A stretch of DNA of 64,000 nucleotides from Arenicola marina (Eukaryota; Annelida; Polychaeta; Arenicolidae). The notes below the pieces were generated by a model. That model had not been told where the DNA came from, did not search any database, and worked only from the letters and a program-made list of their open reading frames with translations. Within the stretch, counting starts at the first letter, position 1, and each line of letters opens with the position of its first letter. Of the stretch, positions 14,691-54,120 are shown piece by piece. The position numbers were made by a program, and so were the translations under genes. Location of the stretch: NCBI GenBank assembly GCA_964019135.1, contig OZ025255.1, forward strand, positions 21,367,708-21,431,707, given 5' to 3'.

Positions 14691-14702
14691 TTTACCTACT
14701 TA

Positions 14703-23090: not shown

Positions 23091-23298
23091 TGAAACGAAT
23101 ACTGGCATGCATATTCTTTAAAATACGTGGATTAAAGGAAATTAGACATTTGCATTATCAAATGCGTCAATGTGCCAATGAGTTTTCATATGAGCAATTT
23201 TCTAAGGCAAATATGAGTTATTCCCTATACATACAAATGTTAATGAACTGCTACTTATAACATGGGTACTAAAATAGCTGAAAACTGTGGCAACAATA

Positions 23299-26203
23299 TC
23301 AGCAGCACTCAGCAAGTTCACTATGGCAACCACTGCGGTGATCCTGCCACGTGTACCCAAACATTTTCATATCCCAGCTGTACTTGTCGAGGACCTGGCG
23401 GAAGAGGTCGGGGCGATCGCGCTCCAGCTCCGTCAACATGGCGTCATACTTATACACCGTGTTATCGAAATGTGGATTAATGTGTTTTACGGGGTGCTCT
23501 ACGTCCATGCCCCAGCCCATCTCCCTCTTCAGATCCGCCATCTCCACCACCAGATTCTCCATCTTCAGGATGTAGTCGTAATCCATGGTGCAGGGTTCGC
23601 ACGAGTTCTGGTAATCAAGCCAATGCATGTTTCTCTTTCCACGTGTCAGCGTCTGCTCTACCCATGAGGTAAAATTCTGGGGTTTATCCGGGTTACCCCA
23701 GGCGACTGCCAGTTGATAGTAAGCGGATACAAATCGTTGTAGCGGATGGCGGACGATCACCATGCGGGTAAAATTGCCGTACGTGGCCAGCACCTCGGAG
23801 AATGGCATGTCTCTGAACCTTCTAAACGGGGCGGCGTCAGCGGTAAACTCCCGATCTTCAACTCCGTATATGTGATGAAACAGAAGCTGTCTGTTGGCGT
23901 TGGCGTCCGCAAAGAACTGCTCCCCTGCCTTCGTGGCGCTCTTGTAGATCAGGCAATAGTAAAAGGCCTCTTGCTCGCTGGCTATGCCACCGTTGACGAG
24001 CGCAGACATGTCGGCTTGGCGTTCTCCGGACAAGTCCTGGCAGACCTTGTGAACGAGACGCCTGCGTGCTCCCCATGTACAGGATACCGGCGGGTGGCTT
24101 TCGCCCAGGGGTCGCCGCTGGTCATCTTCGAAGTAGTGGTTGTCATCTTCTGAAGCGTCCACTGCTCAAAACAATAAATAACACAATAGGACTTGTTGGG
24201 CAATATTTCAAACAAAAAGTCACGTTAATAAAATACTTATTATTAGAATACTGTTCAAATAAAAAACTGTTCAACTGGCATTTGAGTAATATATATGTTT
24301 ATTCAACTGAGTCTTCTACGTGATTAATGCCCCAAATGTGTCAATGCACATCCGTTGTTGCTCACCATATAGATATTCAAGAATCGAAATTCTCCAAAGC
24401 ATGTAGTGGGTGCATGTCTAAATTACTATTGAGGGCAGGGCAAGGAATAAACAATATGTAAACTAAATCCAAGTTAACTAGACAAACTAGTAGTGGCGGC
24501 AAATAAGGCAGATTTTGTTAACTGGCGGTCACTTCTTAACTCGCTATCGTAAATGAATCGAATATTATGAACTTAAACTAAATGCATTTGAAAGCATCTC
24601 TATGTGGTGATGCCTGTGTAAAACCCAATGGAGCTTTGTGGCAACACTTATAAATCCATATGCTGCATCTTCATAGCCCACCTCCTACACAACAATAGCC
24701 TTTTGTCATAACCTCTCGCGTTCATGGCGGTAGTATTTAAAATATCAAGGGGTCGTTGACTTAAATTCTGGTGTTTTAAAAAAAGATGCATTCGGTGAAG
24801 TGAACGGTTTCCACGTTTTCCATATAGCGTTAAGAATTTTTTTTTGTCCGCGGCACCCAACGCGAGGTACAGTCAGTTCGAGGAAGATGATATGATAATT
24901 GCCTTAACAATCTTAGTGTGGCCATTAAACTGACTGACACTATACCTCCCGTAACGTATATTAAGGCTGCACTATATGTAGAGAATCTCCATTTAAGAAT
25001 TATTATTGGCGGTGGGTAATCGGTTAGTTAAAGGTACTACTTCAACAAAAGGTAAACACTGGACCGGCGGGCGCCACACATTTGACCCCGCCCTCTTCGA
25101 GGAATAGTACCGTTTTTCAGCGCAAAATGTATGCCATCTGAGGCATGGGCCCCTCTTTTTGAGGAAGAAGGTTCGAATCATTGGTGGCCCTCACTGTGCC
25201 TGAGATCTCCCAGGCGAATTCTCGCGATGTCAGCCATGTTTGCTCAATCTGTTCCGGAGTTGGTTGGTATGGTTGCATAATTCTTTCTTTGTCGCGACTA
25301 CACGGCAGTACAGGTCTCGTTTACTTATTGAGGAAATAAATAAATTACTTAGAAATCGGACACACGAATTTACGGGGCTCGTCAAGCGCGGTAAATGTGC
25401 GATATTGGGGGTTGAAGCGGGTGCCTGTCGCTCAGTTCCAGCGGGAGTTGGACACCTTGTGTGTTTAGTATACGTTGTGGGGCCCCCTACCCCTCCCCCC
25501 GCCGGCCTCCCCCCTCCACTGATTTACTGTGCCTGTGGTGGCCCTCCCCGAACGTCCAAAATTGGTAGACCCCCCTCGCAAAGCCTCCCCCCCTACCCGG
25601 TCATAAATGTTCAGTGTATCCCCCCCTCATTTGAAATCTTCTGGATCTGCCCCTGCAGTCCACGGTAGACCGACGGACATACGGACATGTAATCATAAGG
25701 TTGTGCGTTTATTCCTGCATGATGGCACTTTAAAATTAACATAAAAACTCCTCGATCCTAATCTGTCATTCTAAGACTAATCGATTAGTTCAGGCAGCTC
25801 CTGCGATTAATTTTGTTTTATATTTTGTTGAAATATTAACTTTATCTAATGACCATGTATCGCACCAGCACACGACCGTTTAGCATCAAAATATACGGTT
25901 GAGCGGAAAACAGCCGTATTAGCAAAATTCTATCACCTTGATATATAAGGCGTTAGAAGCAAAACGATTATTTATATATATTACGACTACATATTATGAT
26001 AAAAAAAAATTTCATATAGTGAATAAAACAACGATGTTGTAATTACTGGTTCATGCATTAAAACCGAAACAAGGGTGATGCTCACCTATATGTGTGTCTT
26101 CCCAGTCTTTAAGGAATAGCAGTTGTAATAGCAATATGCATGCACCGGATATCATAAGAACAAGAAGCAGACAGAGCCTTGTTCTGACAGAGGATCCCGT
26201 CAT
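23299..26203 (-). CDS. Golgi carbohydrate sulfotransferase, copy A (two exons)
   Basis: Likely transfers sulfate from PAPS to a hydroxyl of a glycan chain in the Golgi lumen (CHST8-14 / HNK-1 sulfotransferase type). Coding exons: 26203-26086 and 24161-23299, joined in phase (G|TG) with a GT donor and an AG acceptor, giving 326 residues. Residues 10-31 form a signal anchor (LCLLLVLMISGACILLLQLL), hence a type II membrane protein. The PAPS 5'-phosphosulfate loop is around residues 110-123 (LIYKSATKAGEQFF), unusual beside the common PKVACT form. The 3'-phosphate motif is at 176-188 (VRHPLQRFVSAYY). N-glycosylation sites NFT at 169 and 202. The C-terminus has the family-like DMKMFGYTW. An in-frame ATG seven codons upstream (26224) is an alternative start; copy B supports 26203. 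The acceptor sugar cannot be told. Confidence 0.9.
24170..26085. other. Intron of sulfotransferase copy A
   Basis: Patches align with the copy B intron: AATAAATAACA-CAATAGGACTTGTT next to the acceptor, TATTAAGGCTGCACT at about 24959 (B: 43499) and GGTTGAGCGGAAA at about 25899 (B: 44611). Between them it holds unrelated inserts, including a foldback-arm relic at 25390-25550 and a GGATCTGCCCCTG MITE-type end near 25640. Confidence 0.7.
25390..25550 (+). repeat. Diverged relic of the foldback element arm
   Basis: Matches the right arm at about 17815-17950: GGGGGTTGAAGCG, GAGTTGGACACC, TTGTGTGTTTAGTA, then GATTTACTGTGCCTGTG against GATTTACTATGCCTGTG. It shows that the arm sequence is a dispersed family. 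Confidence 0.65.
26086..26203 (-). CDS. Membrane-anchor exon of sulfotransferase copy A
   Basis: A short 118-nt exon encoding 39 residues plus the first base of a split codon, ending ATAG|gtgagc. It starts MTGSSVRTR, then about 20 hydrophobic residues, then the stem FLKDWEDTHI. It was identified by its match to the equivalent exon of copy B; the intron to the catalytic exon is 1924 bp. Confidence 0.85.
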
Positions 26204-26284
26204 TTTCCAAACATTTCCAGCCATGCCGCATCACCAGGCATGCTCGCATCATCTAAACCCTAACCCGTTTGCTCCTTTCGCCCA

Positions 26285-26302
26285 TTGAGATATTTTATAA
26301 CG
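26285..26302 (-). promoter_or_regulatory. Probable TATA box of sulfotransferase copy A
   Basis: The minus strand reads GCCGTTATAAAATATCTC, about 90 nt before the ATG. The same block (GCATGCCGTTATAAA, then CTCAATGGGC) precedes copy B, so it is conserved between paralogs while most of the surrounding sequence has diverged. No transcript start is visible directly. Confidence 0.45.
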
Positions 26303-26463
26303 GCATGCATACACGCATAACGCATAAACCCCATGGATCGCTTGAACCCAAATCAATAGTTTTTTCGCGACATTTCATTGACATTTCACCCTTTATTGAC
26401 ATTTCACTGTTCATTGATTCTATTTTTATTTCAATGATGATGGATAAGCTGTCAGCTCTCGAT

Positions 26464-26658
26464 CAATACATTAAAACAATAGTCGACAATGTACATAACA
26501 TGCTGACCTTTGTGTATGCGTGTCGCATTGTGTTAGAACTATGATGCATTGTGTGCATCTCGTACCCGACGCGTCTTCGGTTTAGCAGTGTCACTAATCT
26601 ATGGATTCAGAATTGTCATTACTCTATCGGTTTAGCATTCTCACTAGTCGGTTCTTCA
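26464..26658. other. Upstream flank of sulfotransferase copy A beyond the duplicated block
   Basis: Homology to the copy B flank ends near here. Nothing else recognised. Confidence 0.4.
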
Positions 26659-27448
26659 CATTGTAGCAACTTCGATATTGTAGCAGGCAAACACACAAGG
26701 TAAATAAAATGCAGATATACCGTTCCAGTATTTATTTACAAAGCCCACGCCTAAAACGCTTGTGACAATACTTGGTATCAAACCTTGCCTTACATTAAAT
26801 ATCTGATTCGAAACCTGTGATTAATGTTTGTTACGGCAACGAATACTGCGGTATACACATAACAACTCTGACTCCACTTTACCCACAAAAGCTGTCTTGC
26901 ACTAAAAAGGCTTCCTCAAGTCAATAATAGGCCTGGGACCAAATGACAGTAAAGTATAGCAGATGGGCTGCCTCATGCTAAAATATATACCGGGGCTACT
27001 TCATGATAACAGATAGGTACTATGCTCCCACGGAGTTACCGCGCACAACAGCATGGAAAGGTACAATGCATCCCAAGGGACTACCTCTAGGGGTTACCCC
27101 ATAATAACAGTCAGGTACTATGCTCCCAAGGAGCTACTGCGCACACCATCATGGGCCGGTACAATACATCCCAAGGGGCTACCTCAAGCGACTACCTCAT
27201 GATAACAATGGGCACCCAAACATGAGCTATCACACCACTAGTGCCGCGGCTACTGCGGGAAGAACATGTCAAATGTGATCCCTGGAGTCTGCAGCAGCTT
27301 ATCTCTCGAGCCTCCAGACGCACCCCTATTTATACTGGCCGAGGCCCAAATATCCCCTACGTCCTCTTAGCCAATGAGCGATAATCAAAGTAACTCTATC
27401 TCTACCCTTAAAAATAGAACTAAATTTCGCCTGGCTACACTACAATGT
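26659..27448. repeat. Element with terminal inverted repeats (LTR-like or TIR-like)
   Basis: The left end TGTAGCAGGC (26679) mirrors the right end GCCTGGCTACA (27429-27439), and a further CATTGTAG and CTACAATG pair lies just outside. On the minus strand it would start TG and end CA with AATAAA about 50 nt from the end, as a solo LTR would. No target duplication or primer site is found, so a DNA element is equally possible. No coding content. Confidence 0.4.
26993..27215. repeat. About 97-bp tandem duplication
   Basis: Two copies and a partial third sharing GGTACTATGCTCCCA, GCGCACA and CATCCCAAGG. It lies inside the element at 26659-27448. Confidence 0.8.
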
Positions 27449-28929
27449 ACTTGAGAAACCTGCTAAATAACCTACATAACAAGATAGCTAAGCTACTCTT
27501 AACCATACTCACGTTAAACACCTTTAATCGTCTTTTCTGTCTCAAACATTGCCTATCTCTCTTCTCCATTCTGGCAGAAATCTACAAACCCAATCTTACC
27601 CACGCCCCCAACCGAGTTACCTTCCTACTTTTTGTACAGCTATCCCAGCTCCGTATATGGTAGTAAGCTACTCAGCGGAACGTTTCTACTTGTACGATTA
27701 CTTGCAATACTTGTAATTGTACGGAATAACGATCGCCCAAAATTGCCAACAGCTAATCGCGAATCTCCAACAATTCCTGGATACCAATCGCGGAGATCGC
27801 AAAAGGTGTTCCCTCCACCCAAAGACTATACTGCCTCTCCCAGAGAGAAAATCGCGCTGTAGCTGCGAAATGCAGTTAGCCGCGAGTTAAGTTCGTTGAT
27901 AGTTCAAGATATTACAGTGTAACAAATGAGCAATAGTAGGCGTCTTAACACAACATTGCACAATATGTCAGTGAAGATTGAATAATGAGCCAATCCCATT
28001 AACTGGAGTCAGTCAGTCAGCATAATGTATATACGTATAATGCATTACATAGATTCCATAACTTCTCAGACGAAAATAAAATGCTTATTAACGCAATCAT
28101 TGTATCATGAAATATAGCATGAGAGCTTTTATAGAATTGCTCCGAGAGCAATAGCAAAAAGGGACCAATACACAAAATAAGACTGCCAATGGCATGTCAA
28201 ATATATACTATAAAACAATGCATATCGATTTTCAGCTGAAAATAAAATGTATCATCATGTGATAGTTTAATCAATTAAAGATATAAATAATATATTGGCG
28301 CATAGCCTTGACTACAAAACTGTGACGCCCCTTCGTGATGTCGTATTGCTTTATGCAAGTCCCAGTGCCCAGTTAGTAAATATTGCGAAATTAGTGCAAC
28401 AGATAATGTATATACAAAATAAGGGGCACAACAGTCCCCGACAGGCCCTGGCACTCGCTTAACTTTCAAGTAATGACAGGCCATTGCGGGAAATACTCGT
28501 GTCTTCTTGCTCCTAGCGTCCTGTATTTATGACACCAGCAAAATGACGAAAATTTCCAAAGTCTAATTTAGTATTTCAGAACTGACAAAGTACGTTCGAA
28601 TTGGCGGATAATATCAGCAGAAAACACCATAAACAGAAACATTAATACGTGCTTCGCTAAGTTGTTGGTTAAATTTTTTGAAAGTGGGTGCCACAGTACA
28701 GCAAAACAAATCGATGAGCGTCAAATGTCCCATGCCAATTGATGCCTTTTTGGGCAACACAAAATCGCGTCTTTCGTTAGTAATATTCAGAAGGGGCCGT
28801 TTGAACGATACATAGACATGGCGGGTTGTATATATGTGTTACATTTCAGCATGTAGGTCCAATTTGAACGTCCTATAGGACTCTAGGAACGAATGTGTTT
28901 CAACCACTGCCGGTATTCTATGACCTATA
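27449..28929. other. Gene-free stretch
   Basis: No exon, RNA gene or repeat recognised. The 72- and 76-residue plus frames at 27445-27862 and a minus frame at 28275-28484 show no motifs. Confidence 0.4.
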
Positions 28930-29095
28930 CTTATAGTTGCCATGTATGAGGCGACTTGCTACATACAATCATGTGCCCATCCCGACCTTCTTCGGCATTA
29001 TATTATTCGCTACATTATAACGCGCTTCAATATATGGTAATGTGTAGGATGATTGTGGAAACCGCTGTAAGTACCAGAGATTACCGTCAACTCGC
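28930..29095 (+). repeat. Dispersed repeat, second copy
   Basis: Same-orientation homolog of 8690-8850, diverged, with TACTTATAGTTGCCATGTATG and ATATGGTAATGTGTAGGATGA retained. Confidence 0.7.
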
Positions 29096-29604
29096 CCACT
29101 CTGTGTATATAATTATCCGATGAGCGGATTTGGGAATTTTACGTTACGAAAATATGATCGGGGCGCGTTGTTGGTAATCCCCTAAGTGGCGTGACGAAAA
29201 ACATTAAGCAAGCTTGAAGGAACCAACATCTTGGCACCTTGCGAGTCCTCAGCTAAGTACTTGAATATGACCACCCACTACCACCTGTGGTGGGAATCAA
29301 CTCCCGTAGCTTTAGGACCCGTTGCACTCCTCCTACCCCGGTTCAGCCCCAAAGGGACCTTTAAAGAAGGCCTTATACGCCCATAAATTTCCCCTAAAAT
29401 AACCATCCTATTTAACGGGGGCCCAGACTGGCTTTTACAGAAGCATCGTGACTTATCAACTTTAGGATGAGTTATCAAGCCCGTCTATCCCCAGAAGGAA
29501 CCCTTTTGGGAACTCTGGACATGTAATAACGCAGGCATCCCGCGTATTACCGCCATAGATGACGTACGTACTCGCTTAAATCCGAACATTCACTGTCTTG
29601 CCAG
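29096..29604. other. Gene-free stretch before the GSTK exon relic
   Basis: Nothing recognised. A minus frame at 29278-29478 lacks motifs. Confidence 0.4.
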
Positions 29605-29710
29605 AACCCAGATGCAGTCTTCTTCAAGAAGGGGATTGTAACGGCCAAGCGTTACGTCACAGCTGTTGACCGTGAGAGACCGGGTATGACGGAGGCGATC
29701 AGTCTGGCTT
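29605..29710 (+). pseudogene. Orphan copy of a GSTK1 exon
   Basis: After an acceptor (TCTTGCCAG) the frame reads NPDAVFFKKGIVTAKRYVTA then VDRERPGMTEAIS. This corresponds to the GSTK1 exon at 3525-3653 (NPHAGLFKNGTITAMRFITA then VDDERPDMTEAIS). After AGT at 29703 about eight bases are missing relative to the parent, so the frame is lost before RELWLRTW, and no donor follows. The upstream intron edge is weakly similar too, so this was DNA-level duplication rather than retrotransposition. Same strand, 24 kb downstream. No other GSTK exon is recognised nearby. Confidence 0.8.
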
Positions 29711-30059
29711 TTGTCGGGGAAGCGGAACCGTTGTGTTTAACAGCCGCTTCATTTGCAGTTAGTTATCTTGATTTCCTGAACATAGCCGGTCGTTCGCTAA
29801 CACGACATTGATCTGACAGACGGAACCCAGCAGAACCAGTACAGGATTTAGTGGCGCTCTCTAGTGAGCCATTTCATAGTTATCTGATGAATTGTGCTTT
29901 CAGGAGCAATTCTCAGGACTCAGATCTACGTAATGGAAAATGTCGGACGTAAAATGCATATATGTTCACCATCATGCATTAAAGAAAAACCTGTAGGCGT
30001 AATGCCCCGGCGGGGCACTGTTATACGAATCTGGTGGGGGGGGGGGGGGGGTTACCCGG
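29711..30059. other. Gene-free stretch with long G run
   Basis: A run of about 16 G at 30036-30051 follows a GCCCCGGCGGGGC palindrome near 30004. Confidence 0.5.
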
Positions 30060-30345
30060 GTGCTCCCTGATGCCTGAGGGAGCGGACATTTGTGGTGCAA
30101 AAGTAACCCCTATATAGTGGATATTTTTAAACTTTCGCCCGGGGTGGGGGAGCTCTGAACAAATGCGTGCATAGAGCGGGTTGCCGCGAATAATAACCCT
30201 TACGAACCGATTTTGGCGGTAACACGCCCCGACCGAGCGGATTTTGGCGATTGAAAAGGGTGGGGTGGGGGGGGGGCTTTACCGCGGAACCCCCCCGCCC
30301 ACAGCAATGTATTAAGCCCCCCCCCCCGGGGGCCTAATGGTTTTT
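30060..30345 (+). repeat. G/C-rich dispersed repeat, copy 1
   Basis: Inverted relative to a second copy at about 53170-53450. Shared words: CTGAGGGAGCGGACATTTGT, GAGCGGATTTTGG or its counterpart, and CCCACAGCAATGTATTAAG beside a C/G run. The interior is rich in G and C runs. Confidence 0.75.
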
Positions 30346-30518
30346 GATATATTGACTGCGTTAGTCAAGTCTTAGAACGGTTGTAAGTGATGCACAGGTA
30401 CATATACATCACTATATGACGTACGTTTAAGGTGTCATAATGGCCAATATGAAATATGAATTTTGTAAGTGTTGATAGTCCAATGGGGTGACCAGTCCTG
30501 TAAGGCTTAACATAGCCC

Positions 30519-30550
30519 CATGTGGCGTTGTTGGGAAACAACGCCACATG
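30519..30550. repeat. Perfect 13-bp hairpin
   Basis: CATGTGGCGTTGT (30519-30531), a six-base loop, then ACAACGCCACATG (30538-30550). No T run follows. Confidence 0.85.
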
Positions 30551-31799
30551 TCCAGTCTATCAAATCCTGTACGGCATTTTACAAACACGCGTGGCGAGAA
30601 GCGGTGCTGATGGCGAGAACTTTTTGGGGTATGGCAATAGTTTCTAAAAGTATGCATCTTACAACTTATCTTGTTATTTTGGTTGAAGTCTCCGTGATTA
30701 CGACGATATCGTCTGTTGATGTTTCGAAGCAGCGGACAACTCAGTTCTGTCCGCCGCCTTGCCCACCCAGTGGAGAAACTGCGCATGCTTGGTGGCGCTT
30801 TATACACGCAGCCATTGACACGCAATAAGCGAAACGCCACCTGGCGAAAGCCGCTGGTGAAGAATGACCAAATATGAAACGCAGCGGTAAACAACAAGAA
30901 AGTCTCATTTCAACCGACTTGATAGTAATGTGATACTTTGTTAGTTCATATGCATGTGGGTTTTGGTAAATATGAAGTTAAGGTATCATAGTACAAAATG
31001 ACAAGGGTTTGATGGTTCGTGCGGTTAACAACACTTAGTCGCCCACAAAAACACATCTTACACCCTCATTTTCTACATGCGGACATGAGACTGTTGTGTG
31101 TAGCAACAACTGTCTAATATGGGACTAGGCTTAACATAGCGTTGATTAGTAAGCCCGTAGTGGCAAATTGCAGGATTAGGACATCAGTCAGCTTTTTAAA
31201 CTAACACCGAATTGTAGATATCGCTTGATCTGCCAAGTCGTTCATGTAACTTAGTACCCTTTTTTCCATCTCACCGCCAAACGCCGCCTGGCAGCGAGTG
31301 ATCACGCTTGTTGACTTCCGGCGAATGACGGAGCACTGAAAACGAAGCGAGAGGTGCCAAAAATCGCCCGGATTACAAGAAAACATATTACCGACCAAAG
31401 AAATGACTGTCCGACGAAAGTATTAGAAGCTTCAGGAATCTAGTGGAGCACATTGACGGGTAGGCACTGCATATTTATTCTGTTAGGACCATCGGTCCGC
31501 GATTTCTAATTTTAGGCCTGGCTAACGGCATGGCTCTCTACCTTGCTCCGTTTACGGGCGTGGTCAGAGAGGCAGGTACCAGGGCTAATGTTATGCCGGC
31601 TTGTAAATAAACACTTATATTGCTGCCGTATTGACATTCATAAATATGAGCATTGAACCAGCCATTTTCATTAAGACCTCATCTGGGGTTCTCAATGAGT
31701 GAAGTGGCGCCACTTAGTGGGATCTGTTAGAGACTGTTGGGTCTGACATGAAACGACCCAAGATAACTAAAGGGCACAATTCACGAAAAAGCTATGATA
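30551..31799. other. Gene-free stretch
   Basis: Minus frame 30427-30897 (156 residues) and plus frame 30520-30828 overlap on opposite strands without recognisable domains. I treat both as chance. Confidence 0.4.
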
Positions 31800-32435
31800 T
31801 ATGGCGTAAAGATATTGGGCGATCAGTCGCACGACGTGTGAATGCTTTCAGACCATTGAGCCAGTTGTGAAATCTTTTACTTCGAAAGATGTGAGCAGAA
31901 ATTAAACCAATGAAACAAGGAGGCATGCTAAGATCCAGTACATGTTCTGGAATTGGAATTGGAATTCATAGTCAATTCGTAATAATAGTAACAGCGCGAG
32001 TTTTGCATGACGTTAGACATTTTATTGGCCCTCCATTTTCATTATCATTTTCAGATCATGAAGGTTGCTGTGTGTCGGACCTATGAAATTGCCTAACGTC
32101 CATATCAAGCATTTCTTGGAAACACCTATCCAATGTAATGTCGTCTGTTTGTGTTTTAGGAGAGAAAGAACGGGTGCGCAGGCTGAATTTGCTCATCACA
32201 AGTTGAGACATCCATAGAGTTCCGCATTTAATTCATGTTTTTGCCCTGTTTGGGCGTAATTGTGTGGGTCAAATGTCCAACATCTTTTCCGGTTGTGCGC
32301 ATAGACTAAGTATACAGACAACGGGTATTTTTCTTATGCGTCCTTTTTAATTTGATCACACAAATGAGTCGTCTGGCTCCAGGAGCCGAAGCCGGTGATG
32401 TGTGTGTGTGGCGCCTAAATTGCAGGGCCCCGGGG
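31800..32435 (+). repeat. Modular dispersed repeat (family R), copy 2
   Basis: Homolog of 18890-19455 in the same order and orientation, with small indels. An inserted tract around 32265-32330 separates the GGGCGTAATTGTGT and GCGTCCTTTTTAATTTGATCA blocks further than in copy 1. Confidence 0.8.
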
Positions 32436-34870
32436 AGTAAGAACATTAGCCGGCACCGTCTGCGAAAGAACTATCCAGGCACGTCTAGTGTCATCTGTCT
32501 TTCTGGAGACCATGCCTACTGAAGCGAAGGAGGAGGGACGATATGTGGCTTCAACAGGGTTCAGGCATGTGTCAAGCCATGGACACTGAATTAGGTATTG
32601 CATCGCACGGTTCTTCAAGGCGACGTTAATGATCATTATTATGAGTTGATAGTGGTGTTAACTAGTATCATAACAATAAATCGGAAGGCGAAAAAAAAAT
32701 CATGTAATCTGACCCAAACCGCCCTATGGCCACAGAGTAGGTATTATACAGAGGGTCCACTCCCGTTGGCTCCCACGTAACCACTCGCACAGCCGAGCGA
32801 TGGTGGCGCTCCAAGCGGTGAGCGTGTGGTCGGAAAGAATCATGGCGTCGTCTGTGCCGTGCTTCGTTAAAAACGGGCGAACGAGGCAAAACAGCGCTGC
32901 TGGATACTTCAATAAATGCCTGAGGTCTGCGATCAGACAAATCATTATTTTGGCTTCCAAAGCAACTCGAATGTTGTTTACCCACGATAAAATTTAGAAA
33001 GTCCAAAGTTATTTAAATAAATGAACGACTGCCGGTCTACTTTCATGGTGTATCTGGCACACAAGCGAACTCTGCTCATACAGTTTTGCTCAATACAAAC
33101 GAATTCAGCTAGATGTGGTATCAAGCAAAAAAACACAGCTTACTTTTCAACATGTAATGATCTTGTAAATTATAATTTATATTCGATATATATGGAGAAT
33201 TAAATGTTTAAACTGGATATAGAAATGTAGTACAGTCTGTCATAACGCGCTAAAAAAAATAGGTGCCTATTAGCCATGACTCGTGAGTGACGCCCGGATG
33301 CGAAGTGAATATAATTGGTCAAAATTGACGTATCGAGTTTAAATATTCTTTTAGCACACAAGAAAATTTCTTAATGACTCATAACGGATCTTGGAATAAC
33401 AAGAAAGCGCTGCATCAACCTCAATGTTGAAGAAACGATGACATCTAGATCTATGCCTGTTTACAGGTTCAGTCCATATATATATTGTCGTGGGGGTTGA
33501 CAGGCGGAATTTATGCACAAGAACACAAGCCACATTTAAGGATGCGCAAGCAGCAACTCAACCAGATTACCGGTATATCTTCTATAAGCACATTGAATCT
33601 TGTATTTTTAAGTATGTCTTCGACACTGGATATTAATATTAGTTTGAATTCTACAACAAAAAGTGTCAGCAAAATCAACATTTACCATGAGTGCGAGGCA
33701 CCCCATTAATTGCTGATTTAGGAAGTAGATATATATATATATAATTATGAATGGAGTATCCATTGCATTATTACAATGTGATGAACTGACTTAATAATAG
33801 CCAAATGGATCCAAGAAGTTAGATCTAAGCTTTGCCTCGTTATCAACATTTTGCTGAATTGAAAAACACATCAAACTATTTTTTTTCATTTTTTCTCAAT
33901 ATCTTCAAAATTGTGTACAATACTGAATTGTAAGAAAATATGTTTGGATTGGTTCATGCCAAAAATTGTATATACCAGGGTAGGATATAAGATATCAAGA
34001 GATATGGAAAGATACACGGTTATGGATGTTAACATTCTACAATAATAGTACAATTTTTTTTATGCATCATACCAAGATATGTTGGGGTGTTATGAACATT
34101 GCTAATGTTTTATAGAACCAAATTTAATGAATGACAATTATTAACAGAATATATTTCACAAAATACATAATCTGTAACAGGAGCATACAGGTAACACATG
34201 CTTGTAACTTGTGACCTAGAAAAGTAATCTAGAGGATTCTTGCCAACCAATATTCAAGCTGCTAACCGATAAATTATTTTAAATTGATTGTTTGAATGTC
34301 TCAGTTTCAAATAAATGAAATAATATCTACAGGTATATATCCGATGTATTATCATATTTGTAAAATGATATTTGTTACCCATAGATTCAAAATATTTTAC
34401 ATTGAAGAGAGGGAGATCAACTTAATAATAATTTTACAGTCAGAATCTCCTGAATGATGAAATATTATTACATTTTAACAAATGTCTTTGAAATTAGGGT
34501 GTGCATAACTCTTTTATTTAATTCTTACACAACAAGAATGCCTCACAAAATATGTTAGATGGAAATCATGTATTTTACTCATTAGTAAAAATATGCAAGT
34601 AGTTCTTCAAGTACAATAATAATAATACCCTATATAATATTAAAGACCAGAATGGTTTTGGCCTGAATTGTGCATTACATATGGGGAAAATGTGAATTTC
34701 TAGTGATCAGCATTCACATAGCTAAACTAAAGTATATCTATTAAGATCTATCATCATGCATAGTTGCATAAAAATGTAGCATTAAATATAATAATAAAAG
34801 CCAAAATACAATAATGTATGGAGTAATGTCATATTCTGCAAAGTCTACAAAATATATCTTGTTCGGCGCG
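32436..34870. other. Gene-free stretch, AT-rich to the right
   Basis: 32652-32730 is an inverted match to 20517-20592. The minus frame 32668-33006 runs across this match and has no domain. From about 33150 the DNA is strongly AT-rich without recognised features. Confidence 0.4.
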
Positions 34871-35805
34871 TGTGTAAGTTGTCTGTAGGGACAGGCAATC
34901 ACAATGAAGATCGGTCTAGTTCCAATTCTGTTTTATTCCTTCTTCTCGCGTCACAACGTCGTAATACAGTCCAACCAAGAAGTGATGAATAACGCTATAT
35001 AAGCGTACCTCTACAGTGAGGATTTTGTTTACTTGCTTCTGAATTTAGGGTCAACCGGGAATTTAGAAAAGTGAGTCCGAAATGTTTCTTTAGTAGTGCT
35101 TGTGGCCGAGTCAAAATCAGAACCTCGTCTGTCGGTGACAGACCTCCTTATATAGCCCTAATTTCCCGCCACACATCCAGGCGGGTGTCACACATTGTAC
35201 CTATTTATGTCTGGATCCTTTCACTATATCTCATACAGCGGCGCCAGCCGTTTGCGTGTAACGTTCCATTCTATACATTGTTGCACGTGTCCTAGAAACC
35301 TGATGGCGCAGAACTCGCACTAATTGCATACAAATTTCATTCAGTGAGTTCCCCACACGTGTCAGTTCTGTCTTACATGTGTACACGTGCCCTCCACTAC
35401 GTGACCACCTTGATTAACCTTGGTGAACCTTGTAGCCGGATTCATGTGCACTGAGGTCGTGTGTCTCCTGTCTGACTCTAACTGCTTGGTAAATATATTC
35501 CGGCAAATGAGAGTGCCGTGGCTACAAAGCGGGCAGCCATGCCATAAACCGCTAACCGTAAATTAATGCTCTTATCAGGTAAAATCACAACCTGTACGCT
35601 AATTAACCGACGCGAGGCTTAGGATTAAGACACCAATGAGACCGTAGACATGCGCGGCCGCGGGACAGGCCAGCCATAACTATCCTACTTGCGTTGATAC
35701 GGCGACCCAACAACACACACAGTACTTCCTCACATACTTACCAATGACATTAATGGTACTCATGGTGCCCATATTGGGTCTAAATTGCCTATGCCTGTAT
35801 TGGAC
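34871..35805. other. Gene-free stretch
   Basis: Moderate GC. Contains CGCTATATAAGCG near 34994, a palindromic TATA-like word. No gene recognised. Confidence 0.35.
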
Positions 35806-36065
35806 ATTAAACCTCGACCACTTGACCCAAGGTAAGCTCCGGCGGCTCCATTACAATGCCTGTGGTGCATTCCCCCGGTCAACGATATCCGTATTAACAA
35901 AACAAAACAATTACATAGCTAAATAACAACACTTGCACCTGCGGAGTATTAAACGTTAATCCACTGTACCCAAGGTAAGCTCCGGCGGCTCCATTGCAGT
36001 TCCTGCGGTGCACCCCCCTGCCAGAAGGATACCCGTATTAATAAACAAAAATCATTTACATAGCT
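35806..36065. repeat. 142-bp tandem duplication
   Basis: Copies begin ATTAAAC at 35806 and 35948 and share CCCAAGGTAAGCTCCGGCGG, TCCATT and CCGTATTAA, ending TTACATAGCT. Identity is about 80 percent. Confidence 0.85.
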
Positions 36066-36289
36066 TTAAAAAGCGCTTCCAAAATGAGGACGCAGTCGTC
36101 GTCTACTTTCTTCCAATCCTCCTCCATCGGTTCATCGAATTGGGGTTCCCTGGGCCGAACCCTGTCGGTGAGGGGAAAATCCGTAGGTACCGCTGTCCGG
36201 AAGTCTTTTCGGGATGTATGATCCGGCAAGGAATGATTATCTCGTGTTCCGGTGGTACAACAACTGTCTCCTTCGATCAATCTACAAGT

Positions 36290-36745
36290 TCTCGGGTTTG
36301 TTGTCGCCCAGTTATCCCAATTAAATGTATAATATCTACTCTGTGCTTTGGCCTATTCAATAGTCAATCGTTGCCATAGTGATATTCTGTAGAACCATGT
36401 AACATGACGTCACGCACAAACAAATCCCGTTTCTTGGCCACGATATACAATGTATACTGATATGGTGTAAAGAAGGCGACTGGCTAATACGATGTTAGAA
36501 GGTTGTAAGTGCTGCAAATTGTTCTTCGTACGTTGTATGCAAAAGTTAAACCAAAGAAGCAAGGAGACATGTTAACTCCCAGCACATATTTGAGGTAAAC
36601 TTGAATTTTAATTCGCGAGTTTTGCACGGCGTTAAAAATACATTGCAGACCGTTCCAGATACCCCTGGCGACATCTATCGTTGACATTGGATCGTTTGTA
36701 TCGGCCCTTCATCAATCTGAAGCTGCCCTTCATTTTTATTATTCT
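36290..36745 (+). repeat. Family R module, copy 3
   Basis: Contains CAATCGTTGCCATAG, CACGATATA, GATATGGTGTAAAGAAGGCG, then AAGCAAGGAGACATGTTAA and GCGAGTTTTGCACGGCGTTA, aligning with both the first half of 36830-37190 and with 31880-32040. Confidence 0.7.
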
Positions 36746-36829
36746 TTAATTATAAAAATTGGTTGGCTGCTACTGCTTTATTGTGAGCCAATACAAACGC
36801 CCCGTTAACTCGCGCTGTTGTAATACTAT

Positions 36830-37190
36830 TTACGAGTTGACGTCGTCACTTTTGACTGGTACAATAGTGTAAGATCTGAAGGCGGCTACAATCATGAAAG
36901 CTGAACACAGATTATGTAAGGTATACGACCTCGGACCTGACCTAAACCACCCGGCTGACCATTCAATCAACAATCGTTGCCATAGCGACATTGCAGAGAA
37001 TAATGAAACATGAGTTCCCCCAAACACCAATTCTGATTATCAGTTTAAATGGCCCGCCAGGTGCCACGTTTCTGCGCCACGATATATGGATATGGTGTAA
37101 AAAAGCGACTGGCTCACATTTTGGGTTGCCATTTGCGGACCATTAAGTCAGTCGCTAAATGATTTATTTTGAACGTTGTGTCCGAACAGA
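36830..37190 (+). repeat. Family R module, copy 4
   Basis: A neighbour duplicate of copy 3: CAACAATCGTTGCCATAGCG, CGCCACGATATATGG and GATATGGTGTAAAAAAGCG. Followed by a C run at 37214-37223. Confidence 0.65.
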
Positions 37191-38950
37191 AGCAGAGACA
37201 CGTTAAAGTCTGCCCCCCCCCCCACCCCAAGTCCAGATTCTGGGTTCAAAGTGACTTTTGAGACACGAATTCCAAAACCAAAATATTGTACCGTGAAAAT
37301 AGAATATCCGTTAATTTGTTCGGGAGCACTATTAGAAGTATTTGCCATTATGCCGCGGTAAAGACCTTCAAGAAACAGAAGTTATCATTTGACGTTTTCT
37401 TGACGTAACTGTAGGTTCTTAACGTAAATGTAGTTTCCTGTTTGCTAAATTGTCAGCCATTTATTTTACACAAACACCAAGATTGCTTCAATATTTAAGA
37501 TACTATGGGTTTATTATATAAATTTTACAAATTCATTTACGCAGAAGCTGGACTTTAAGTACCTTTAAGTCAGGTACTGAAACACCAAAAATAAGGATAT
37601 ATAGGTAATTCATAATTGACAGTTTTAAAGTGATTTTTGACATTCAAAATGGCTCCCAACTGCTTGCACATCAGCTCCAAATAATGTGACCCATGGTGCA
37701 GGCACCAAATATGGTCCTTGCCATTTTGTATAGGAAACACATATGAGGGTACATCAATATTTTGCCTCCTTTAGTATTCACAATGATATAAATATAATTA
37801 TAATGATATAAATATAAAAGAATTGTGATAATATTTAGATACATTGTGACTACATATATAAGGTACTCTGAGCAAAACATATTTGATATAATTAAAATTT
37901 AGTCATTTTGAGAATGAATTGACTGTTTACGTTTCATCAATTTTAGATACGATAGCAAAACAGTATAGAGGTGCCAAAGTGCGCTTGCTGATATCATCTG
38001 TGGCATTATCATTTCACGAGAAAGGCTATTTGTTTTTACCACTACAGGACAATTTTTGAAATACACTATAAAAAAATCCATTATAATTATCGACATAAAC
38101 AAAAAAAAACAATACCTGAATTTAGTTTAAAGTTAAGATGATTTTTAATATGACCACCAGTACCCCTTTTATACACAGTGAGTGCACGCATCCCCGTTGT
38201 ATTGTCCCTCAGCTTGGACCAAACGATATATTCTGTCATATGACTAGCATCCTAATAACATAGCCATACACTAAACCATATTGGTGAACAAGGGTCTGGA
38301 AGGGGTAAATGGCGACACGCGACACAGGCATATTTGAAAAATCGACATTGACCCCCAAATTCCGAAACTGGGGATCTGAAAAAAGCTATGTCAGCACAGA
38401 TGATGGTATAATAGCATAACACGGCAATGAACGTCGTTAAAAATCGATATTCGACACTGAGAATTTTGAAAACTTGACACGCTACGCTAGGCAGATCGTT
38501 TCACGTGTGTTTACAAATTCAGTAGGCATTTATCGCAAGCTGTAGAATGTAGATGCCTCCTCATTTTATTGATCGATTTCGTCTAAAATTTATCGTTTTG
38601 ACGGCTTGTATTCTTTATCTCTCGCCCTACGATACGATAGTCTACCCGTGCAGATTCGGAATCAATATTTTGCTTACCATGCTAGCGGTTGTCACTCTTG
38701 TGCATAAACTATGCAGGTTTTAACAAAAAAGCTAAACAACATCACTGTATATTCTCTAAGGAGTTGTATCACTTAGGGTTTCACAGACTTTGCGATCTCC
38801 GAATACGCAATGGTAAGCTATGTGAGTCCTATATATTAGAGCAAGGACTTCCTGCAAAATACTTGGCAGACGTGTATGAACTGAAAATACAGCCACTAAG
38901 AAATGATGCATCATAATAGGAAACAATGATCCAAGCCTTGTGACAGAGAA
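37191..38950. other. Gene-free stretch
   Basis: AT-rich. No exon recognised. A small direct repeat AATGATATAAATATAA occurs at about 37780 and 37802. The plus frame at 38689-38916 could be LINE 3' sequence but has no motif I can name. Confidence 0.4.
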
Positions 38951-38959
38951 AAACACCTT

Positions 38960-39630
38960 TATAAATCCGTACTGTTTCAGTGTGAAAAGCGAATTCTATT
39001 ACAACTTTTATTGTACGGGAAAGATGTCGAGATCAAAATCTGAAGCGAAATGGAAGAACGCGTTGGATGAAAATAAGTTAAATTTTGACAGTATATACCT
39101 CAGAAAAGTTTAAAATGTTTCAATTTTAAGGTACTTCACGATATACTTGCATGTCCTTTAAATCTGTACAAATCGAAACTACGCAACAATAATATATGTG
39201 ATTGCTGTGAAAATGTGTGTGATGTCAAACATCTATTGTTCGAATGTAAGCATGCCAAAGATATCTGGTCAAAGGTTGAACCAGTTATTAAGCGAGCCAT
39301 GACTTTAGAAGATGTAATCTTAACAGAATTACTTACTGATGAAGCTTTTGTAATCTGATGTCTTACCTGATCTATAAGGAATTTCTGTTGTTAGGAGATG
39401 TAGATGCATCATCGACTAGAAGCACATTTTATATGTCAGAACTACGTTCCAGAAGAACTGTTTGCAAGTTAATTACAAAAGCTCGAATATGCGATCGCAT
39501 TGATGCCTTACTTCCAAATAAGGTACTTTAGTACGGTCTAATTACATTGCCTAAGTATATATTTTATAAACTGTCTGTAACTTGTCCGCTTTCTTAAATA
39601 AAACATTTTATTAAAAAACTGTGCAGGTTA
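38960..39630 (+). mobile_element. LINE 3' end, L1/Tx1-like
   Basis: Frames read KWKNALDENKLNFDSIYLRK, then VLHDILACPLNLYKSKLRNN, NICDCCENVCDVKHLLFECK and HAKDIWSKVEPVI, with a one-base shift between KMFQF and VLHDIL near 39130. The CDCC-x(n)-H-x4-C pattern is the zinc finger found after reverse transcriptase in L1/Tx1-type LINEs. The translation stops near 39358 (VI then TGA). The tail runs to AATAAAACATTTTATTAAAA near 39620. 5' truncated and dead. Confidence 0.8.
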
Positions 39631-40219
39631 TCATTGCTTGTTTAGTTATTGCAATAAATGGAGCCAATGAAAAGACATCTTAAAGCTATTCAAACAGTTT
39701 TTTCCCGGTAAAATCACACGATGATCTAAAATTGTTGCATTTCAAGGTCTGACTTGTGCAACAGTTATTAATTATTATCACTGAGTTATCATTAAAATGT
39801 ATTGCTTTGAGCCTGCTCAGCATCCCATAAATGGTGCACCAAACCGGTCAACTACACAAATATGTGATGTAGTTCACATAGCTTTCAGTTTACAGCTATC
39901 AAGCAAAAATAATTCTTTTTTGTCACGTTTACCATGTTGACGTTGACCTTTTTAAGCCAATGGTACAGTTGTGTTCAGTGTGAATGCTAATATTCTTTTT
40001 CTTTTAAATTGGAGGGAAACAGCTGTTTGAATTCACATCTTTCTGAAATATCCACGGCTATCGGGATTTAATTGCACTACAGAATAGCCTTATTTGATAA
40101 GGAAAAGAGACTGGTAATTATCAAATTTACTGCATGTATAACTTTTACCTAATGTGCGTGATTCACAATAAGTTATCAATACAACCCCGATGTACATATT
40201 ATTGGGCGTGGTGGCGATC
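39631..40219. other. Gene-free stretch
   Basis: AT-rich. Nothing recognised. Confidence 0.4.
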
Positions 40220-40490
40220 GCACCGACACCTGCCGGAATAGGTATTTACGAGTGCGTTGTCCAGAACCCCAGTGCACTGCCAACTGTTCTGATAATGATG
40301 AACATCTTATAATTGAATAGGAGAAAATTGCAAGGAAGCGATTGTCTTCAGTGGCCAGTCAATGTTATCATAAAATGGTGATAAACATTAATAACCATGA
40401 GGTTAATTTTGACACAATGACAAGCCCACAGGCCGACTTCGTAAAATGTCTAGACTTAGAAGAGATACTGCCAGAGGTTAATCAGTAGAG
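40220..40490 (+). mobile_element. Possible LINE-like zinc-finger tail (weak)
   Basis: One frame reads LRVRCPEPQCTANCSDNDEH then LIIE and a stop, and continues in frame as EKIARKRLSSVASQCYHKM and on to PEVNQ and a stop near 40487. The C-x4-C-x3-C-x5-H spacing recalls the cysteine region of LINE C-termini, but no reverse transcriptase precedes it. It could equally be a decayed host exon. Confidence 0.3.
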
Positions 40491-40980
40491 AAGGTATGAA
40501 AGGAACCTGATGATTATGAAAAACACGATTCCTGGTGCAGACGACCCGCCCAGGGGTTGTTTTCGTTATTGCCAGATTTCGGAGCAACGGGTGTGTGTAG
40601 GCTTACCATGGTACACTCCAGGGATTACTAGCCAATCTAAGCCGTTACGCCTGCCTGACCAACGCAAAATGCAGCAAATGGGTAACATCTAGTCAAGGCG
40701 GACAGCCGTAGCATATTGGATATAAACCACTTTATGGTGGACTTATATGACAGGCACAGCCGTATCGTATCGAATGTAACACAGACGGGCAAGTCACCGT
40801 AATTATGCTATTAATTATATGTGTATCTGTTTAGCAAGACGTCGTTAACCACCAAATATCGGTGTTCCAGGTAGCGAAGCGAAATTATTAAACAATGTGA
40901 GTAAGCCGGGTAGTCACATCTTATAAGTTTATAGTCAAGTTTATAGAAACATCTTGTGTGTTTGTTTTGTGAATAACAAA
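40491..40980. other. Gene-free stretch
   Basis: Nothing recognised; the 60-residue frame at 40510-40692 has no motif. Confidence 0.4.
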
Positions 40981-40984
40981 GCAA

Positions 40985-41790
40985 TAGGGCTGTACAGTCA
41001 CTTCGGGATCTTATCGAGACCCCACGAGACGGGGATACCTATGCTCTGCGTCGATGCCTAGCACCAACAGCCTGTACGTGTTGCCTACCTTCCAGTTGTT
41101 TGCCTTCCCTCGCCTCACACACAAGATCGGCTAAAGCTGTCCTTGGAAGCACAACTAACCGCTGAAGTTCTGTGCATATCCGGATTATAACCATCCGAGT
41201 AGATTTATGTAATGTATGAGCGGTTAGGCGGTTGATAAACAAGAAAGCGATTTTCTCATGAGTGACTGTCAGCGTCAGGCGCTCTGATGTGCTGCGCGGG
41301 GTTTTCCATGTCGTATGACGTAATAATCATCATGACGCGCGTGTCTGCGCGCGGTATCTATGGATACGTAACAACGCTCCTTATATGGACTGAGCAGGTG
41401 AGGACAATGGTGCTTTGTCGTAGAACTGTAAACATCGATGATTTGTCTTAAAATACAACGCTTCCAACGGTCTCATCGAACGGACCACATGCATTATGGA
41501 GAGATAAATGTCTTGTCTTTAACTATATTACGATTTTATAGTTAACAATGCCTGGACCAAAGCAAACAAAAAATAGTTTCACACCCACTCGATTCTTTAG
41601 GCACAAACCGCGCAGCTGGCCTGTTCCCACGTTGGCCGGTTCCCACGTTGACTACAATGAATGCGCGTCACGCAGTTGCAGCAAGGCGCCAGCGTGATGC
41701 GTACTCGTTCTAAGAGCACGTGTTCTTTCGTTGATCCCCAAAAGACCTAAACGGGAAACAGAACCCGCGAGAACTGTACAGCCCTATAGG
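40985..41790. mobile_element. Non-autonomous element with ATAGGGCTGTACAGT inverted ends
   Basis: ATAGGGCTGTACAGT at about 40985 faces ACTGTACAGCCCTAT ending about 41789, an exact 15-bp terminal inverted repeat. The interior (about 800 bp) holds a direct repeat GTTCCCACGTTG at about 41624 and 41639 and no transposase. No convincing target duplication, so the superfamily is not assigned. Confidence 0.7.
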
Positions 41791-42153
41791 GATGTTCTGA
41801 TACAGGTTCTAAGGGGGTGGGTCGATGAAGTTAAATCTGGAATACATATGCTTTGACGTATGTGGATTAAGGGGAATTAAACATACCTAACAAGGTGGGC
41901 GACTTAAGCATTGCTTGAGAATATTTTTTGAATTGCTTGAGCCATTCGTTAAAATACCTATATTGCAATTAAGAGTTCATATACATTGATCTGTTTAGGG
42001 TATCAATTTAACATTTTGGTGAGTGACACAAACAATTAAATTATCAATTGGGGCAATGTGCAAATCGGTTGTCTTCCATACGAGCAGTTTTCTAAATATA
42101 AAAAATATAAAATGCATTACCCCACATATAAAGAGTGTATACCAACTGCTACA
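41791..42153. other. 3' flank of sulfotransferase copy B
   Basis: Diverged homolog of 23090-23298 (TGTGGATTAA-GGGAATTA, CAATGTGC, GAGCA-TTTTCTAA). Strong similarity begins only at the stop codon. Confidence 0.6.
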
Positions 42154-44860
42154 TCAGCAGCACTCAGCGAGTTCACTATGGCAACCACTGCGGTGATCCT
42201 GCCACGTGTACCCAAACATTTTCATATCCCAGCTGTACTTGTCGAGGACCTGGCGGAAGAGGTCGGGGCGATCGCGCTCCAGCTCCGCCAACATGGCGTC
42301 ATACTTATACACCGTGTTATCGAAATGTGGATTGATGTGTTTCACGGGGTGCTCCACGTCCATGCCCCAGCCCCTCTCCCTCTGCAGGTCCGCCATTTCC
42401 ACCACCAGATTCTCCATCTTCAGGATGTAGTCGTAATCCATGGTGCAGGGTTCGCACGAGTTCTGGTAATCAAGCCAATGCATGTTTCTCTTTCCACGTG
42501 TCAGCGTCTGCTCCACCCATGAGGTAAAATTCTGGGGTTTATCCGGATTACCCCAGGCGACTGCCAGTTGATAGTAAGCGGATACAAATCGTTGTAGCGG
42601 ATGGCGGACGATCACCATGCGGGTAAAATTGCCGTACGTGGCCAGCACCTCGGAAAATGGCATGTCTCTGAACCTTCTAAACGGGGCGGCGTCAGCGGTA
42701 AACTCCCGACCTTCACCTCCGTATATGTGATGAAACAGAAGCCGTCTGTTGTCGTTGGCGTGCGCAAAGAACTGCTCCCCTGCCTTCGTGGCGCTCTTGT
42801 AGATCAGGCAATAGTAAAAGGCCTCTTGCTCGCTGGCAATGCCACCGTTGACGAGCGCAGACATGTCGGTTTGGCGTTCTCCGGACAAGTCCTGGCAGAC
42901 CTTGTGAACCAGACGCCTGCGGGCTCCCCATGTACAGGATACCGGAGGGCGGCTTTCACCCAGGGGTCGCCGCTGATCATCTTCGGATGAGCTGCTTTTG
43001 ACCGCTGGCGCGTCCACTGCTGGAAACAATAAATAACATAATAGGACTTGTTAGGCATTAAGACATTATTTCAAACAAAGTAGTCACTTTAATGAAATAC
43101 TTATTATTAGAATGCTATTCAAATGGAAAACTACCGAATCGTACGCACTTGCACCACATGTGTATACAACTCGTGATTACAATAATGATTAATGATTATT
43201 ATCCCACATACGTCAATGCATATGTGTTGCTGCTCATAATGTAGATATTCAAGAATCGAAATACTACGAAGTAGTAAGGGCACGGCGAGACATGAATTAA
43301 ATCGACCGAAAAAAACGGTAGTTGCGGCGAATGAAGAAGAGTTTGTCAAATTTTGATCAGTTTCTTAACTAGCTCGATGGGAAATGTCTTGAATATTATT
43401 AACATAAACTGAAATTTATGCTGTTATTATTAGCATAACTTTATCAATCTTGTTATGTGACTATTACACTCACTGACAATCTAGCTTCCGTGACTTATAT
43501 TAAGGCTGCACTGTGGTTAGATATGTGCGCAGTGTTTAAAGCAGAACGTGTTTACTTACATGCGCCATCTTAGATTTTGTATATTTTAGAATCAAGACTA
43601 AAGGTATCTCAACATTATGATGCATACATGTTTGTATCTCGAGTCTGTAAAATAACAATGTCAACATAAAACGGCGCGCACTAGTTTATCGCGCTGACGT
43701 CCTGGCGACCCGCGGTCGACATCACACAGAATATCGAAGAGCGAACATGCGCGCAGGGATATAAAGCGGGCCACCAACTTCTGCTCTGGTGAACAAATTT
43801 GCTTCTCTCCGGAGAGCCCACGGGCTTGCAGGATTTAAATTCAAGACAGAATATACTTATTTGACATGGAGATAGAATAGGAATATAAAAATTACAGAAC
43901 ATATTGCTTTCAATTAAAAATATTATTGGCGTAACGCTTCATTCATAGCAACCGATTATAATATATCAGGGAATCTAGATAAAAAACATGCAAATATGTC
44001 TTTTAATCGTGTGCTGGTGACCAGTAGACAAATAGATGGAAAATACGTGCTTGCCTCTGTCCCCGCAAGACACCTCAATATCCAGGTTTCTGCAAGTGCT
44101 TAGCGTTATCGAATACTGATGTCATGTTAGGCGTAACATTTATTTCGTCTCTCACTGCATGTTTTTAAATCAAGGCCGATAAATGCCCCCTCCTCCCTCT
44201 TGACCTGCATGAATCAGTTCACTGGATCATAAACGTATATTTCTTTTACACAAGTTTTAATTTAGATATAGTTCTAAACTTAGACTCTATCGTGCAAGAT
44301 TATATCTATTACTGAGACGACTCACGGCGTGGGCCGTTCTATTGTTGTGGAAAGAAATGGCAAATGTAGGGTGGAGCAACACAACTAAGAACACAACCAA
44401 GGAGTAACACAACCATGGCTTCAACCACCAAGAACACACATACCTCTTCACCATTGTAGGTCTATCTACGCTTAAAATTTGATTATAAGGTTAACGAATA
44501 TACATATGAGTTAGACGCTTCCTAAAGGCAAGTCCACTCAAGCAGAGTGCATTAACTCGAATGGCCATGTATCGGAACGGCGCCCGACCGCTTAGCATGA
44601 AGATATGAGGTTGAGCGGAAACATTTATGATGCGGTATTACCACATTATATGACGCTTGAACATTGACAGAAAATGAGTTGGCAGCAAAAGGATTATATC
44701 TATATTATGACTATATATAAATATATAGGCGATGCTCACCTATCAGGGCGTCTTCCTGGTCCTTAAAGACTAGTAGTTGCCATAACAATAAGCAGGCACC
44801 GGATATCATAAGGACAAGGAACAGGCAGAGCCACGTTTTGCTAGAGGATACCACCATCAT
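42154..44860 (-). CDS. Golgi carbohydrate sulfotransferase, copy B (two exons)
   Basis: Paralog of the gene at 23299-26203, same strand, about 18.8 kb away, with the same predicted job (PAPS-dependent glycan sulfation in the Golgi). Coding exons: 44860-44740 and 43016-42154, joined in phase as G|TG, giving 331 residues. The anchor is LCLFLVLMISGACLLLWQLL. The catalytic exon keeps SATKAGEQFF, VRHPLQRFVSAYY and both NFT sites. From SEDDQRR onwards it differs from copy A at about ten residues in 270, yet the anchor exon differs at about 13 of 39. The start of exon 2 (VDAPAVKSSS) is also distinct. Two adjacent ATGs open the frame; the second aligns with copy A. No disabling change seen. Confidence 0.9.
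43030..44739. other. Intron of sulfotransferase copy B
   Basis: Aligns in patches with the copy A intron (see 24170-26085). The intron A foldback-arm relic is absent here, so that insertion postdates the duplication or was lost from B. Confidence 0.6.
44740..44860 (-). CDS. Membrane-anchor exon of sulfotransferase copy B
   Basis: 121 nt, 40 residues plus one base, ending ATAG|gtgagc exactly as in copy A. It starts MMVVSSSKTW, followed by the hydrophobic anchor and stem VFKDQEDALI. The intron to the catalytic exon is 1723 bp. Confidence 0.85.
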
Positions 44861-44889
44861 CTATGAACCATTCGTTTCCTTGGCCCATT

Positions 44890-44906
44890 GAGAGGCTTTA
44901 TAACGG
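44890..44906 (-). promoter_or_regulatory. Probable TATA box of sulfotransferase copy B
   Basis: The minus strand reads GCCGTTATAAAGCCTCT, about 40 nt before the first ATG. The 5' UTR would be very short if the start site is the usual 30 nt downstream, which may favour use of the second ATG. Conserved with copy A. Confidence 0.45.
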
Positions 44907-45019
44907 CATGCATACATAGGCAAAATTAACATTTACACAATTTGCTTGAACCCAAATCAATAGTTTATGTTAATTTTGTTCATTGATCCCATTTTCCTTG
45001 CAATGGTGATCGATACATC

Positions 45020-50840: not shown

Positions 50841-50844
50841 AATA

Positions 50845-53450: not shown

Positions 53451-53809
53451 CGCCAGCCGAACCCTACCACCAGAGTCGTCATTATTTATGGAGAAGGGGT
53501 TAGGGGTAGATGCATGGGAGTGCATTAGATTTCTGGTTAGTTCCAGCCCCGAATCCTACGGCAACAGCATACGCAAACAAGGTTTCGAACGGAAGCTAAT
53601 TTTCCCGACCAAAACTTCTGCTTTTGTATGGTGTGTGGAGCCGACAATTCTGGCAAAAAATCAAATTCAAAGTCAAGACAAGGAATAGGAGCAGGGGTCG
53701 TTATTGGTGGCTGTGCACTCTGCCGTCGGTCCGCAGCCAAAGCCAATGTCTAGTCAGGACAGTTACCATTTCTGCTTGTCCTTTGCCCGACTGATCACAT
53801 TTATCCTGG

Positions 53810-54120
53810 TTAAGTGGGCAGGCAGTTTACAATTGTTATGACGACGAACCTCTGATCACTGGCGTTACGTGAATAGACTAGTGCGGACGTTTTTTTGCCT
53901 TTCATTTCCGGCGCGGACATTTCCGCAAGACAGACCTCGCGTGATGACACATACAACACAATGACGACTTCCGCTGAAGAAACCAGTCGATACGTACTTA
54001 GATTCCCAAGTTACAGTTACAGTAAAAAATATAAAGCAATATAATAGTTATAGCCCCATGATAAATATAATAAAAATTTAGCTGTCATTGGTTTAGTTTA
54101 TGTTGAGCAATAGAGCATGT
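53810..54120. repeat. Segmental duplication, unit 3 (module P and start of S)
   Basis: GGGCAGGCAGTTTACAATTG, TTATGACGACGAACC and TTTGCCTTTC match module P. AGCCCCATGATAAATA and GTTTATGTTGAGCAA match the middle of module S. The unit is then interrupted by about 2 kb of AT-rich DNA. Confidence 0.7.

Follow-up and report, generated by a model that had tools for sequence, protein, structure and literature searches.

Two genes in a 64,000-nt stretch of Arenicola marina DNA (the window) encode putative sulfotransferases whose catalytic exons are nearly the same, down to silent sites, in the midst of DNA that is far more diverged. The locus therefore raises the question of how one part of a gene pair can stay alike while the rest ages, and where precisely the boundary between the two parts lies. 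A sequence-only reading of the window had proposed gene conversion of the catalytic exon, with an anchor and stem that evolve freely. The extent of the similar sequence, its silent and replacement divergence, and the competing explanations are considered below.

Organization of the two genes

The genes are direct repeats on the minus strand, about 18.7-18.9 kb apart, and share one layout (a short exon 1, a single phase-1 intron and a long exon 2), and no third copy occurs within the 64,000-nt window. Exon 2 matches the Pfam family Sulfotransfer_2 (PF03567) at 74 bits in copy A and 69.7 bits in copy B, against a cut-off of 22, with the matches spanning profile positions 6-251 of 252. Within it, we take YKSATKAG as the putative 5'-phosphosulfate-binding motif and VRHPLQRFVSAYYQ as the putative 3'-phosphosulfate-binding motif, on grounds of resemblance. 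Exon 1, as predicted from DNA alone, codes for a hydrophobic stretch, which reads LLLVLMISGACILLLQLLFL in copy A, and joins exon 2 in phase; from what is generally known of the family, this stretch may be the anchor of a type II Golgi protein, in which a short tail and a single anchor precede a lumenal catalytic domain. The same family knowledge suggests that both predicted proteins would have a Golgi location and PAPS-dependent sulfotransferase activity on a carbohydrate. An NCBIfam search gave no match, a search of PDB sequences gave nothing but weak chance matches to antibody chains, and no relatives turned up in the viral and prokaryote genome collections. The structure predicted from the two-sequence alignment had a mean pLDDT of 39 and was unusable. 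The features of the two copies, in the order of transcription, are as follows.

Copy A, 26280..26471, minus strand: upstream patches (putative promoter and 5' leader) homologous to copy B, with TATA-like TTATAAAA just downstream
Copy A, 26086..26224, minus strand: coding part of exon 1, short N-terminal tail and membrane anchor (MAGNVWKMTGSSVRTRLCLLLVLMISGACILLLQLLFLKDWEDTHI); start codon taken as the first in-frame ATG; phase-1 GT donor next
Copy A, 24162..26085, minus strand: intron, 1924 bp, its middle unalignable with copy B
Copy A, 24162..24267, minus strand: 3' end of the intron, probably homogenised, 12/106 mismatches
Copy A, 23299..24161, minus strand: coding part of exon 2 (end of the stem and catalytic domain), stop codon 23299-23301
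Copy A, 24131..24154, minus strand: stem divergence peak, eight codons (SEDDNHYF), 14/24 mismatches to copy B
Copy A, 23298..24130, minus strand: homogenised catalytic tract, 833 bp, Sulfotransfer_2 domain, 97% identity, no indels
Copy A, 23148..23231, minus strand: 3' flank patch, 79% identity to copy B, with unalignable DNA between it and the stop codon
Copy B, 44883..45018, minus strand: upstream homologous patches with TATA-like TTATAAAG, putative promoter
Copy B, 44740..44860, minus strand: coding part of exon 1 (MMVVSSSKTWLCLFLVLMISGACLLLWQLLVFKDQEDALI), start codon putative
Copy B, 43017..44739, minus strand: intron, 1723 bp
Copy B, 42154..43016, minus strand: coding part of exon 2, stop codon 42154-42156
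Copy B, 42986..43009, minus strand: stem divergence peak (PAVKSSSS)
Copy B, 42153..42985, minus strand: homogenised catalytic tract
Copy B, 42034..42100, minus strand: 3' flank homologous patch

Extent and edges of the homogenised tract

The two loci are a duplicated block, and their alignment was divided into segments by a hidden Markov model whose emissions are match, mismatch and gap. Segmentation placed the block at A 26471-23148 and B 45018-42034, nearly the limits proposed earlier. A separate match of 48 bp lies at about A 23149-23102 / B 41884-41837. The model recovered the same tract with two, three or four states (A 24130-23298 / B 42985-42153; 833 bp, no indels), with an emission of 97% match in the three- and four-state fits. 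This tract lies between segments of 41-79% identity. Upstream sequence and exon 1 together align at 73% identity, and the middle of the intron (copy A 24605-25845) at 41%, hardly above unrelated sequence. The 52 aligned bases beyond the 3' edge of the tract are 42% identical, after which homology is back at 79%.

The abrupt start of similarity reported at the stop codons (23299 and 42154) is real and can be placed one base further 3' in both copies. At its other end, the tract begins about 31 bp inside exon 2, and three of the 11 codons thereby excluded are unchanged. The converted unit had been equated with the catalytic exon; this is right for most of exon 2, but the first 11 codons fall outside it and the 3' end of the intron probably belongs to it.

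Silent and replacement divergence

The tract has 15 differences at 173 silent sites and 10 at 655 replacement sites (dS 0.092, dN 0.0154). The corresponding counts for the final 33 codons of exon 1 are 10.5 at 23.2 and 11.5 at 75.8 (dS 0.695, dN 0.169); the silent estimate for exon 1 comprises 23 sites and is near saturation. The silent contrast is significant by Fisher's test (p about 1e-5 to 7e-5, depending on rounding). Fifteen or fewer silent differences in the tract have a binomial probability of 5e-7 if the exon-1 rate is set to its lower 95% bound, and of 1.2e-5 if the rate is taken from mismatches in the noncoding patches that align best. The latter rate is biased downwards, since alignable sequence was chosen for it, and comes from a different site class than exon-2 silent sites. 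Equal silent divergence in exon 2 and its flanks, which would speak against conversion, is thus not what is found: exon 1 is at 0.695 and the middle of the intron is unalignable. The residue counts of the sequence-only reading were close, as 10 of 276 residues differ in the catalytic tract (about ten of 270 had been claimed), accompanied by the 15 silent changes, and 23 of 33 anchor residues are the same (70%, for a claimed value of about two-thirds).

Silent differences show no significant heterogeneity along the tract (chi-square p = 0.24), so that one event or several of similar age would both fit. Five of the 10 amino-acid differences fall within 18 codons (tract codons 74-91; 23854-23907 / 42709-42762) that contain no silent change and directly follow the putative 5'-phosphosulfate-binding motif. 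This cluster has p = 0.009 at that window size and 0.037 when all sizes are scanned, both post hoc.

Intron edge and stem divergence peak

The last 106 aligned intron bp before exon 2 have 12 mismatches (88.7% identity), a divergence that matches the silent rate of the tract (p = 0.53), lies below that of exon-1 silent sites (p = 0.0008) and goes beyond what selection on the protein can explain. Homogenisation thus probably extends from about 24267 to 23298 without having the exon as its limit, though the intron edge could instead be conserved noncoding sequence, other intron patches being fairly conserved as well.

Between the intron edge and the tract lie 24 bp with 14 mismatches, a count with a probability of 7e-9 at the tract rate and 0.13 at the unconverted rate. 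All eight encoded residues differ, SEDDNHYF in copy A and PAVKSSSS in copy B, between the common flanking residues VDA and EDDQRR. With this peak inside the homogenised stretch, a single unbroken tract is too simple a description. Two tracts may have halted one on each side of the peak, the segment may have changed later through small compensating indels, or selection may have purged conversions that ran across it. That selection against conversion holds the eight stem codons different is a tentative suggestion and on balance rather unlikely. If true, both enzymes would have one repeatedly refreshed catalytic domain in common and stems of their own, which might, for example, allow for different Golgi partners, cleavage or retention.

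Divergence of the anchor exon

Free evolution, as claimed for anchor and stem, fits the eight-codon stem stretch only. In the anchor exon dN/dS is 0.24, compared with 0.17 in the tract, and the replacement-to-silent ratios of the two do not differ significantly (p = 0.56, in a test made weak by small counts); the segment LVLMISGAC is invariant in the anchor of both copies. As its dN/dS resembles that of the tract, free evolution of the anchor is not shown, and the anchor's larger number of amino-acid changes comes mainly from longer separation. The stem peak alone looks free, or selected to differ. Anchors that seem to evolve freely in other such pairs may likewise just be older.

Probable gene conversion and competing explanations

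An old tandem duplication followed by ectopic gene conversion of exon 2, with either the pair itself or a third paralogue as the source, very probably accounts for these patterns. Conversion, as proposed in the sequence-only reading, is well supported by the low silent divergence of the tract, its abrupt 3' edge and the diverged but homologous flanks; the argument is an inference from two sequences. The tract has homologous DNA to either side, which also makes the insertion of a foreign exon unlikely.

One competing account dispenses with conversion and supposes that exon 2 was kept alike ever since the duplication by purifying selection on the protein together with selection on silent sites, acting through codon usage, splicing enhancers, RNA structure or overlapping genes. 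The protein is indeed constrained (dN/dS about 0.17), and GC3 is 0.68, against a GC content of about 0.40 in the introns. However, that GC3 is ordinary here, the receptor-like exon at 63569 reaching 0.73, and the effective number of codons (ENC) of 51-54 is near random, on which ground codon bias was rejected as the cause of the tract. Moreover, among 102 identical fourfold sites 28 carry A or T, indicating that conservation goes beyond favoured codons. An antisense gene on the plus-strand ORFs of the tract was likewise rejected, as the most open of these frames has a pN of 0.032 that exceeds its pS of 0.024, and the substitution pattern of the tract is that of the sense frame. With weak codon bias and no antisense constraint, silent-site selection does not explain the tract. 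Exon 1 is constrained too, yet its silent sites are strongly diverged, while the final 106 intron bp are as low in divergence as the tract. Continuous conservation since the duplication is accordingly improbable.

It is also quite improbable that the genes are recombinant chimeras and not a mutually converting pair, one or both having received a new exon 2 from an unseen third paralogue or through unequal crossing-over between array members. Further paralogues could exist outside the window, which has no third copy, but diverged homology of the old level returns downstream of the tract, and a two-ended exchange, as in conversion, fits this better than a simple crossover. Polishing with short reads can make near-identical paralogues uniform and could in principle have rendered the two exons alike during assembly. 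Such an artefact is highly improbable: once copies differ at a third or more of their silent sites, reads from one do not map to the other, so that polishing could only sharpen a pre-existing similarity, and 25 differences remain in the tract, 10 of them amino-acid changes.

For gene conversion after an old duplication, the following course of events would fit. An old duplication, covering about 3.3 kb, produced two tandem, same-strand, two-exon genes for putative Golgi-type sulfotransferases, the introns and flanks of which then diverged almost beyond alignment. Later, at least one ectopic (non-allelic) conversion, either between the pair or from an unseen third paralogue, would have overwritten the greater part of exon 2, and probably the intron's 3' end as well, lowering silent divergence to about 0.09 in the converted part and leaving the anchor exon at about 0.7. 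Conversion requires near-identical stretches. As selection keeps coding sequence alike and flanks drift, exchange would become confined to coding sequence, and an edge at the stop codon could arise without any special signal, because divergence that builds up fast in the unconstrained flank may halt heteroduplex extension.

Other features of the window

A second direct duplication (48301-52432 / 53805-56933) consists of patches at 80-92% identity, and no Pfam domain scored above cut-off in its tested ORFs. The minus strand carries a decayed retroelement at 11412-14699, in which the gag/pol-like ORFs have broken frames and an integrase zinc-binding domain (PF17921) is present. It is adjoined by an inverted repeat (1-524 / 10573-11098; 528 bp, 89% identity, about 10 kb apart). 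A reverse-transcriptase zinc-binding remnant at 39089-39355 on the plus strand (PF13966, just under cut-off) is likely a LINE fragment. The start of a receptor-like exon (LLGNTVSFLVFVGTYLRRMSSSIYLAGLTLSDNLFLLVMLISW) at 63569-64000 on the plus strand resembles helices 1-2 of a rhodopsin-type GPCR; the exon is cut by the window end and had no Pfam match. Together with the gene structure and the retroelements, this exon would suit an invertebrate animal. Two minisatellites, at 1193-1773 (33-bp unit, 18 copies) and 63029-63528 (14-bp unit, about 37 copies), both give long repetitive ORFs.

Comparison with known systems

No paper specifically on conversion in carbohydrate sulfotransferase genes was found in the open-access literature, which is not proof that none exists. 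Counterparts are known in other gene families. In the Drosophila amylase genes Amy-p and Amy-d, concerted evolution is limited to the coding sequence and the flanks evolve independently (PMC3924832). The sulfotransferase genes are likewise linked paralogues with coding-limited homogenisation and independent flanks. They differ from the Amy pair in being direct repeats rather than inverted and in having only one of two coding exons homogenised, and conversion in Amy is backed by several species and by polymorphism, whereas the present case comes from one species.

Variable exons of fugu protocadherins show regional homogenisation with a discrete boundary within the coding sequence and a divergent 5' part, as judged from silent sites (PMC1852091). 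The sulfotransferase pair resembles them in all these respects, with one coding part homogenised up to a discrete boundary, a divergent 5' part and an argument from silent sites. The fugu genes form a large cluster of many paralogues with >99% identity, in contrast to a single pair with about 9% silent divergence, which suggests that conversion of the sulfotransferases is older or rarer. In exon 5 of the red and green opsins, a short divergent segment persists within homogenised sequence, and such a divergence peak is a signature of selection (PMC3924837). The eight-codon stem segment resembles this peak. The target of selection is known in the opsins, whereas selection is a candidate explanation for the sulfotransferase stem, where compensating indels would look alike.

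The sulfotransferase pair thus belongs to a known pattern of coding-limited conversion. It would offer a clean case from nature in which conversion affects a single functional module of a Golgi-type enzyme gene and leaves the anchor exon to age normally, and gene trees or dates based on the catalytic exons of such pairs would come out too young.
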